Assembly (NCBI GenBank): GCA_030619415.1
Contig: JAUXBM010000004.1
Span: 1-19,899 of the forward strand
Reading direction: 5' to 3'
Length of the DNA stretch: 19,899 nt
DNA from: Chlorobiota bacterium
GTDB lineage: Bacteria > Bacteroidota > Bacteroidia > Bacteroidales > F082
A program made the position numbers and the translations under genes. Positions 14,972 through 16,266 of the stretch are shown here, piece after piece. Every line of letters begins with the position of its first letter. Within the stretch, counting starts at the first letter, position 1. The notes beneath the pieces were generated by a model. The model worked only from the letters and a program-made list of their open reading frames with translations, was not told where the DNA came from and made no database searches.

Positions 14972-15430
14972 TTATTTGTTTAATGCTTGTAAATAAAGGT
15001 TGCAATTGTATTTTGAGATTGCGTATGTATCGAAAGGAATATCATTTACATAATCCTCATCTTCAAAATCAAAGCTGATGGTCGAAGCATTTGTGTAGTT
15101 ACTTTTAGTAGATACAGTTTCGGTATCAAAAGGAATATCTTCTACAAATGATTCATCTTCAAAAAGATAATCTTCAGCCAGGGCTTTTTCATAAAGGCAA
15201 TCGGCTGTTACACACTCAATATATAAAGGTATATCGTTGATGTAAGCTTCTTCTTCAAAATCGAAAGTTGTTGAACCCGATGTTACCATCAGGGATATTT
15301 CTTCAGTATTAAAAGGGATGTCGTTTACATAAATTTCATCTTCAAAGTTAAACTCCAAAGCCATTAAGCTTCCGGCGAACATCAGTGTGGTTGTTAATGC
15401 GATAGCGAATGTTGTTTTTAATGTTTTCAT
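14972..15430 (-). CDS. Small exported acidic protein with four DIPF repeats
   Basis: The product is 152 residues. A signal peptide (M-K-T-L-K-T-T-F-A, cleavage likely near residue 24) is followed by four copies of a repeat around F-E-[DE]-E-x-[YF]-[IV]-[NE]-D-I-P-[FL]. The second F of each copy is at residues 29, 58, 90 and 122, so the spacing is 29, 32 and 32. Between repeats 2 and 3 is a CX4C pair (C73, C78) in E-C-V-T-A-D-C-L-Y-E-K-A-L. The protein is strongly acidic and probably periplasmic or secreted. I know of no function. The frame is open upstream to 15466, but the sigma-54-type promoter at 15461-15476 overlaps that region, so ATG 15430 is chosen; it also gives a normal signal peptide. 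It is paralogous to the next gene upstream. Confidence 0.85.
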   Translation of the reverse strand: MKTLKTTFAIALTTTLMFAGSLMALEFNFEDEIYVNDIPFNTEEISLMVTSGSTTFDFEEEAYINDIPLYIECVTADCLYEKALAEDYLFEDESFVEDIPFDTETVSTKSNYTNASTISFDFEDEDYVNDIPFDTYAISKYNCNLYLQALNK

Positions 15431-15460: not shown

Positions 15461-15476
15461 ATCCAATCGCGTGCCA
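15461..15476 (-). promoter_or_regulatory. Sigma-54 (-24/-12) promoter of the first DIPF-repeat gene
   Basis: On the minus strand TGGCACGCGATTGGAT matches the RpoN consensus TGGCACGrNNNTTGCW at all of the -24 box, with GG correctly spaced from a partial -12 box (TGGA for TTGC). It lies 30 bp before the ATG, predicting a start of transcription near 15450 and a leader of about 20 nt. The same element precedes the paralogous gene. Confidence 0.75.
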
Positions 15477-15562
15477 ACATTTTTAATTATTTGTTTTTAT
15501 GCATTTTACAGAGTTTTATTGATTTTTAACAGGTATGGGCAATGCCATTTTAGCGCACACAA

Positions 15563-15579
15563 TTGTACACTAGCGGACA
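15563..15579 (-). promoter_or_regulatory. Putative enhancer-binding-protein site (UAS) of the first DIPF-repeat gene
   Basis: TTGTACACTAGCGGACA (plus strand) is an imperfect palindrome of the TGTnC...CGGACA type, starting 87 bp upstream of the end of the -24 element. It matches the site before the paralogous gene at 13 of 17 positions, and about 6 of 10 flanking bases on one side also agree. The position fits the usual 70-200 bp range of sigma-54 activator sites. Confidence 0.62.
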
Positions 15580-15600
15580 GGGTTCTGAGCGAACAGAAAT

Positions 15601-15631
15601 AAAAAATCCCACCTCGAAATTCGAAGCGGGA
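15601..15631 (-). terminator. Intrinsic terminator of the second DIPF-repeat gene
   Basis: On the minus strand TCCCGCTTCGAA pairs with TTCGAGGTGGGA (arms 15620-15631 and 15607-15618, two G-U pairs in RNA), followed by TTTTTT. It lies 44 bp after the stop codon at 15675 and directly before the upstream activation site of the next gene. Confidence 0.88.
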
Positions 15632-15674
15632 CCTTTCATCAAAACTTTAGTCGAAATGCTTAGCCTGTTGGGGA

Positions 15675-16109
15675 CTATTTTATATGTGCATAATGGTCGA
15701 GAAAAGTTTTAGCTGCAATTGAGTATGTGTTGAATGGAATATCATCCACATAAAGTTCCTCCTCCATTTCAAAATCAACATTCATGGAATTGGATTTATT
15801 GCTGTTAGCGGAAATTTCTGCTGTATTGATTGCAATGTCATCGATATAGGTTTCTTCCTCAAAATCGAAGTCAACTGCGATCGCTTTAAGATAGATGCAA
15901 TTTTTTGCAATACATTCTGTATTAAAAGGGATATCGTTTATGTAAGGTTCATCCTCAAAATCATATTCCATTATAAAAGCTGACATGTTGTTATCGGAGC
16001 CCATATTTGAAGCATTTCCATTTAGTACTGCGTTCATCGCCACTAAATTTATGGCAAACGCAATTCCCAGAATGAGCATCAGTGCGGTATAAAATTTTTG
16101 TGTTTTCAT
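15675..16109 (-). CDS. Small exported acidic protein with three DIPF repeats
   Basis: The product is 144 residues. A signal peptide (M-K-T-Q-K-F-Y-T-A-L..., cleavage likely after A-M-N-A near residue 27) and an N/S-rich linker precede three repeats. Equivalent positions 51, 83 and 115 give an exact 32-residue period. Repeat cores are F-E-D-E-P-Y-I-N-D-I-P-F-N-T, F-E-E-E-T-Y-I-D-D-I-A-I-N-T and M-E-E-E-L-Y-V-D-D-I-P-F-N-T. A CX4C pair (C66, C71) lies 15 residues after the first repeat's reference position, as in repeat 2 of the paralogue, so these three repeats align with repeats 2-4 of that protein. Predicted periplasmic or secreted, function unknown. It is monocistronic, with its own sigma-54-type promoter and terminator. 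Confidence 0.87.
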   Translation of the reverse strand: MKTQKFYTALMLILGIAFAINLVAMNAVLNGNASNMGSDNNMSAFIMEYDFEDEPYINDIPFNTECIAKNCIYLKAIAVDFDFEEETYIDDIAINTAEISANSNKSNSMNVDFEMEEELYVDDIPFNTYSIAAKTFLDHYAHIK

Positions 16110-16147
16110 TTTTTTAGTCTTTTAGTGTTTCTCACGATTATTGTATT

Positions 16148-16163
16148 AGCCAACCGCGTGCCA
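16148..16163 (-). promoter_or_regulatory. Sigma-54 (-24/-12) promoter of the second DIPF-repeat gene
   Basis: On the minus strand TGGCACGCGGTTGGCT matches the RpoN consensus TGGCACGrNNNTTGCW with both invariant GG and GC at the correct spacing; the -12 box reads TGGCT for TTGCW. It lies 38 bp before the ATG at 16109, giving a predicted leader of about 28 nt. Confidence 0.82.
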
Positions 16164-16249
16164 AACTTTATATCTAGCTGATATTAAGTTTTTAACAGTG
16201 AAATGTTAAGGGGTTTTAACAACCATATTTGTCATTTTCCCGTACGGAA

Positions 16250-16266
16250 TTGTGCGGTATCGGACA
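16250..16266 (-). promoter_or_regulatory. Putative enhancer-binding-protein site (UAS) of the second DIPF-repeat gene
   Basis: TTGTGCGGTATCGGACA (plus strand) is an imperfect palindrome (TGTGCG-GTAT-CGGACA) starting exactly 87 bp from the end of the -24 element, the same distance as at the paralogous gene. Confidence 0.65.

Follow-up and report, generated by a model that had tools for sequence, protein, structure and literature searches.

Two neighboring genes of a Bacteroidales genome are each preceded by a sigma-54-type −24/−12 box and, at the same distance further upstream, by a related palindrome. From this twin arrangement the initial annotation had concluded that one enhancer-binding protein recognizes the palindrome and that the spacing is under selection. 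The locus thus raises the question whether such an arrangement recurs at other genes and, if so, which activator would serve it. As argued below, the two promoters probably belong to a wider gene switch of mostly uncultured Bacteroidales which is operated by one regulator.

Twin promoters and paralogous genes

The window, that is the whole stretch of 19,899 nucleotides that was analysed, is contig C14 of a 1.65-Mb assembly which is 56% complete. The features relevant here are:

14972–15430, minus strand: gene A (P0001, 152 amino acids), a small protein with four FEDExYINDIPFDT-type units and, judged by eye, a signal-peptide-like start
15461–15476, minus strand: sigma-54 −24/−12 box of gene A, TGGCACGCGATTGGAT, with A and not C as the −12 base
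15554–15559, minus strand: TGTGCG, probably the proximal half-site of the second dyad of gene A, which is degenerate and weak here
15564–15579, minus strand: TGTCCGCTAGTGTACA, the distal dyad and putative enhancer of gene A, which matches 9 of 10 core bases and lies 87 bp from the box
15675–16109, minus strand: gene B (P0002, 144 amino acids), a paralogue of gene A that contains three repeat units and, again by eye, has a signal-peptide-like start
16148–16163, minus strand: sigma-54 −24/−12 box of gene B, TGGCACGCGGTTGGCT, GG-N10-GC
16241–16250, minus strand: ATTCCGTACG, where gene B has a weak, degenerate second dyad
16251–16266, minus strand: TGTCCGATACCGCACA, the distal dyad and putative enhancer of gene B, which matches 10 of 10 core bases and lies 87 bp from the box

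The boxes lie on the minus strand 30 bp (gene A) and 38 bp (gene B) before the start codons at 15430 and 16109, as annotated, and transcription is predicted to start at about 15450 and 16137, respectively. Both boxes have the TGGCA context with GG at −25/−24. Ten bases after the GG, at positions −13/−12, gene B has GC and gene A has GA, so that the annotated combination of GG and GC is complete in the second box only, the first one having A at −12. The 1.65-Mb assembly contains six matches to the strict box pattern TGGCAYGNNNTTGNH, two of them being the boxes of the window, compared to two matches of the reversed control. Dyad cores with at least 9 of 10 bases occur twice in the window, both times here, with 0.35 expected per window from mononucleotide shuffles. 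On the plus strand the 16-bp cores read TGTACACTAGCGGACA (15564–15579) and TGTGCGGTATCGGACA (16251–16266). It is for these cores that the distance of 87 bp holds; the 17-mers of the initial annotation begin one base earlier and are strictly 86 bp away, and their identity of 13/17 is right by hand count.

The paralogy of the two genes is confirmed by a search with P0002, which recovers the reading frame of P0001 (6.8e-23, 47% identity). On the contrary, the DNA between box and palindrome is not mostly dissimilar as had been annotated: the two spacers are identical at 45 of 87 bases, compared to 26 ± 4 in shuffles. The pair is therefore probably the result of a duplication and, as the spacers keep this homology, its equal spacing taken alone is weak evidence for selection. 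We rejected it as a proof and used evidence from other genes instead.

Recurrence at homologous and unrelated genes

Neither gene A nor gene B matches a Pfam or NCBIfam family above cut-off. Public proteins contain 133 homologues of the repeat family, and among the 120 listed no precomputed Pfam domain was found. We surveyed the promoters of 55 homologous gene rows, 30 of which pass the box score. One of the 30, G020:C98:863, is a false positive and is counted with the other class of promoters described below. Each of the other 29 rows has a dyad in which 8 or more of the 10 core bases match, and 28 reach 9 or more; in the null from mononucleotide shuffles the share is 0.17%. The dyad is 85–89 bp away in 27 of the 29 rows; of the two outliers, one contains a site of equal quality at 86 bp. 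These sigma-54-type rows carry upstream TGTNCG-N4-CGNACA; the conservation upstream of homologues, on which the initial annotation had made its proposal depend, is thus borne out. The promoter on G011:C24 is a thirtieth member of the sigma-54 type.

The rest of the family has a different promoter. Leaving out G011:C24 and G020:C67, which has 15 upstream bases, 24 assignable promoters remain, and 23 of them (G014:C120 is the miss) contain direct repeats of the type CCATTCACCGA that are 21 bp apart. Counted from where the second repeat begins, a TAnnTTTG element follows at 41 bp in 20 of the 23, and three have no TAnnTTTG. Among the 30 box-bearing rows the 21-bp repeat pair is found only in the false positive. 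Because the rows with box and dyad separate from the rows with repeats, one gene family is split between two rigid promoter architectures. Both types are present in the own genome: the sigma-54 type twice on C14 and once on C71, the other type on C42 (L052) and C37 (L053), the latter two being accompanied by 21 homologue promoters in relatives. This other half of the family bears on the possibility that the boxes are chance matches and that transcription of the genes comes from an ordinary housekeeping promoter, since its promoters show that TAnnTTTG does occur in the family. But neither window gene has a TAnnTTTG within 200 bp upstream or a repeat pair, and the box-bearing rows lack the pair outside the false positive, so that we regard chance boxes as extremely improbable.

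LytTR regulators bind direct repeats spaced by about two helical turns, and the repeat-type promoters are perhaps LytTR-controlled. At L231:8843–10728 (G013:C17) genes which by reading code for a LytTR-like response regulator and a LytS-like kinase are located just downstream of activator-linked ABC/FtsX-type genes; they might form a connection between both promoter types.

Across 198 genomes, a strict box-plus-dyad pattern with an allowed distance of 73–103 bp was found 135 times, in 80 of them, compared to 18 times for the reversed control. In 101 of the 135 the distance is 84–89 bp. Smaller groups at 75–78 bp (15/135) and at 95–97 bp (6/135) could represent one helical turn less or more; of three such cases inspected, L069 and L093 are plausible and L095 lies inside a coding sequence. 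A relaxed dyad at 82–91 bp yielded 143 matches in 40 of 61 genomes, compared to three in the control.

From the loci fetched, 148 distinct sites were scored. Their box scores fall into two groups, 141 sites with 3.9 or more and seven with 0.9 or less, and the cut was set after this gap had been seen. The first downstream open reading frames of the 141 sites were sorted by motif, and their numbers mirror the loci fetched (many, not all matches) rather than genome-wide frequencies: repeat family 37, TolC/OEP 31, ABC ATPase 18, HlyD-type adaptor 16, TonB_C-like 8, tricorn-like/PD40 7, S46 5, DUF5916-like 4, FtsX/MacB permease 3, NUDIX 2, other 4, and none within the fetched DNA 6. Domain scans were done with one representative for most of these classes; the TonB_C-like target scores 23.9 bits, just under the cut-off of 24.6. 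While 28 of the 141 sites (17 ABC ATPase, 11 HlyD) stem from loci that were fetched via the activator gene described below, the other 113 likewise have a spacing of 84–89 bp.

In the 141 boxes, G is found at −13 in 135 and C at −12 in only 24, though the score favored C; the rarity of this C counts against the regulon proposed here. The −12 element of these sites resembles TTNG[TA]T, not TTGC. A second dyad with at least 6 of 10 bases accompanies 121 of the 141 sites, mostly 20–22 bp nearer to the promoter. The consensus of the putative binding site is better written TGTNCR-N4-YGNACA, usually with this second, weaker dyad.

Enhancers of sigma-54 promoters are generally regarded as working at variable distances, and a near-fixed distance is therefore unusual. 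It might be argued that gene and promoter were duplicated together, so that the equal spacing is merely inherited and uninformative on the mechanism, and the spacer identity in the window, well above that of shuffles, is what such an event would leave behind. However, the distance of 84–89 bp recurs at unrelated gene families and across genera, which makes mere inheritance very improbable. The constrained spacing proposed initially is thus supported by this recurrence and not by the twin pair alone.

Small secreted-looking proteins with other acidic repeats were also seen under the sigma-54/dyad arrangement in G031 and G034 (L221, L222, L226). The repeat is xESWMTAPF-like in L221 and L222 and ESWM/ENWM in L226.

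A candidate activator

Sigma-54-dependent transcription requires rpoN, on whose presence the initial annotation had made its proposal depend, and here the evidence is divided. The gene was not found in the own, 56% complete assembly, and it was found in 37 of 40 relatives and in four of five of the same genus. It was not found either in G002, which is 92% complete and yet has four sites; both negative results count against the proposal. The search for a sigma-54 activator gene in the genome, which had been recommended as a check, gave nine PF00158 matches, four of them strong.

One of these activators, P0123, is an NtrC-type response regulator encoded on contig C80 of the same assembly next to a histidine kinase gene. 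All of its domains score above cut-off (Response_reg 64.3, Sigma54_activat 223.9, and HTH_8 51.5 bits), and it remains under every NCBIfam equivalog cut-off among the 25 matches listed. In proteins of the P0123 type the loop which contacts sigma-54 is GAFTDA at 106 of 110 loci and GSFTDA at one (it was not located in three) and not GAFTGA; this counts against the assignment, and we do not call P0123 canonical. A change at this position of the GAFTGA loop can be functional.

The gene of P0123 and a divergent ABC ATPase gene have between them two dyads in tandem, at 86 and 64 bp from TTGGCATAGAATTAG, a box which reads towards the ABC gene. A divergent sigma-54 promoter beside the activator gene is present in all 29 loci of close orthologues analysed (L118–L146), with dyads at 85–86 and 63–64 bp except in L136, which has the nearer one only; L147, beyond these 29 loci, has a site at 85 bp. 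The divergent gene codes for the ABC ATPase in some genera and for an HlyD-type adaptor in others. Near relatives of the activator locus are found in metagenome-assembled genomes labelled Bacteroidetes, Bacteroidales, Marinilabiliales, Lentimicrobium and in some cases Chlorobiota; among more distant relatives, a few bear the labels Ignavibacteriales or Cyclobacteriaceae. The survey was then widened to 80 activator loci, a set that overlaps the 29; here the divergent promoter is present in 36 of the 79 loci with enough upstream DNA and absent from 43, which counts against the assignment. In 55 of the 80 loci the 200 bp in front of the activator gene contain a dyad with at least 9 of 10 bases (null 0.2%), which suggests that the activator may regulate its own gene. 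That 25 of the 80 activator genes have no upstream dyad again counts against P0123.

The distribution of sites and activator was compared in 61 genomes, with orthologues defined by at least 70% identity and with activator-adjacent sites excluded (adjacency judged by eye from the coordinates). Sites are present in 31 of 32 genomes with a P0123 orthologue vs 8 of 29 without; the p value of 9e-9 is not corrected for relatedness and, as the genomes are related, overstates their independence. Five of the eight site-bearing genomes without the orthologue have a relative of 53–57% identity. Three remain, which counts against P0123: G011 (83% complete), which has sites and in which no P0123 orthologue was found, and G032 and G141, each with a single match and no orthologue. 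Seven genomes from the taxonomic family of the host have neither orthologue nor sites and fall into five genera (G008, G010, G015/G044, G018/G047, and G045). The repeat family tracks the activator as well: it is detected in 19 of 41 genomes, the own genome counted, namely in 18 of 22 with an activator orthologue vs 1 of 19 without.

Alternatively, another activator of the genome, or several, might bind the dyads, and P0123 would merely neighbor one of the targets. Besides the sites in G011, the four strong activator genes in the assembly leave room for this, and others may be encoded in the missing 44%. Three of the four types of activators, P0123, L001, and L003, were compared by distribution. 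The L001 type was rejected since it is present in 60 of 61 genomes including site-less ones, and the L003 type (29 of 61 genomes) since it is missing from G001–G004, which have sites. The distribution of the sites fits P0123 (31/1 vs 8/21) better than the L001 or L003 types, and a dyad adjoins the activator gene in all 29 close orthologues and in 55 of the 80 wider ones. We thus consider a different activator improbable. That one activator recognizes the palindrome, as proposed in the initial annotation, appears well supported on sequence grounds, as the arrangement recurs at unrelated genes and beside one NtrC-type activator gene, and P0123 is our candidate.

The L001 activator of the own genome (L001:808–2034, G000:C124) has no receiver domain and is followed by a small gene (L001:275–811). 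This pair resembles a pair of sigma-54 regulator and LptE listed for Flavobacterium psychrophilum (PMC9723704).

Relation to known systems and proposed mechanism

Like activators of the NtrC, AtoC, and ZraR types, P0123 combines a receiver, a sigma-54 AAA+ domain, and a Fis-type HTH, the kinase gene is located alongside, and dyads lie upstream of −24/−12 boxes. It differs from these in the GAFTDA loop, in the near-fixed spacing of 84–89 bp, and in scoring below the NCBIfam equivalog cut-offs. The exporter among the targets has a likeness to the darobactin exporter DarBCD: its adaptor matches the DarC model (1.3e-55, 188.8 of 450 bits required), its permease the DarB model (5.9e-33, 113.8 of 700 bits), and its ATPase the DarD model (5.2e-83, 277.8 of 375 bits). 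Because all three scores are below the curated cut-offs, we do not file it as a member of DarBCD.

The statement that sigma-54 regulons are poorly described in Bacteroidota is only partly correct. In F. psychrophilum a sigma-54 regulon has been mapped and one such promoter confirmed by mutagenesis, and for others there are predictions (PMC9723704; PMC12316311). The F. psychrophilum regulon shares with the present one the phylum, the −24/−12 promoters, and the themes of protein quality, envelope stress, and exported proteins. Its Table 2A contains chaperones, Lon, and gliding genes, but not TolC, S46, or the repeat proteins described here, and the part of the report considered gives no enhancer or activator assignment (PMC9723704). 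A survey from 2025 predicts that antimicrobial-peptide ABC permeases of Bacteroidia are under sigma-54 control, so that FtsX-type permeases are targets in both cases. As far as its text was considered, it differs in being a promoter-matrix prediction by COG without enhancer, activator, or TolC, and its filter kept only GAFTGA proteins, so that a GAFTDA activator would be dropped (PMC12316311). In the literature searched, mostly without subscription papers, neither the activator nor the dyad nor the regulon is described in titles or beginnings of abstracts, the motif word is absent, and no Bacteroidales sigma-54 regulon with an assigned activator or enhancer was found.

The boxes and dyads with their spacing, the targets, the linkage to the activator gene, and the co-occurrence were computed; from these we infer binding, phosphorylation, transcription starts, and signal. 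Taken together, we consider it likely that the two window genes belong to a sigma-54-dependent regulon of secreted and envelope proteins which would be driven by P0123 from an enhancer 84–89 bp upstream of the −24 box. The adjoining histidine kinase presumably phosphorylates P0123, which would then bind to one dyad of the type TGTNCR-N4-YGNACA or to two, of which the second is usually 20–22 bp nearer to the promoter, and from there contact the sigma-54 polymerase at TGGCAY-type promoters. Thereby the small secreted repeat proteins including the pair of the window, TolC, and an exporter of HlyD plus MacB/FtsX-type ABC proteins would be induced, as would S46 and tricorn-like peptidases and the small TonB_C-like protein. 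Judged from the types of targets only, envelope or peptide stress is the likeliest trigger.

A more speculative and rather unlikely reading is that repeat proteins, peptidases, TolC-ABC exporter, and the two-component sigma-54 switch together form a secreted-peptide circuit. If so, the small proteins with their several copies of the acidic FEDExYINDIPFDT-type unit would be multi-copy precursors or decoys acting extracellularly. Processing or transport of such peptides would fall to the co-regulated peptidases (S46 and tricorn-like) and the TolC-ABC exporter, and the switch would sense the peptides or what they neutralize. In this context, distant genomes put the xESWMTAPF proteins of L221 and L222 under the same enhancer. 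As paralogues in the same genome are under the second promoter type, two pools of repeat proteins could be set independently of each other.

The proposed P0123 regulon is ordinary in kind, a sigma-54 promoter with its activator, and new in content as far as the literature searched is concerned. Distinctive are the strict enhancer spacing, the non-canonical loop of the activator, and the split of one gene family between two promoter types. With P0123 a sigma-54 regulon of the Bacteroidales would gain a candidate activator, a putative binding site, a distance rule, and a list of targets, and an unnamed family of secreted repeat proteins would be tied to efflux and peptide breakdown.
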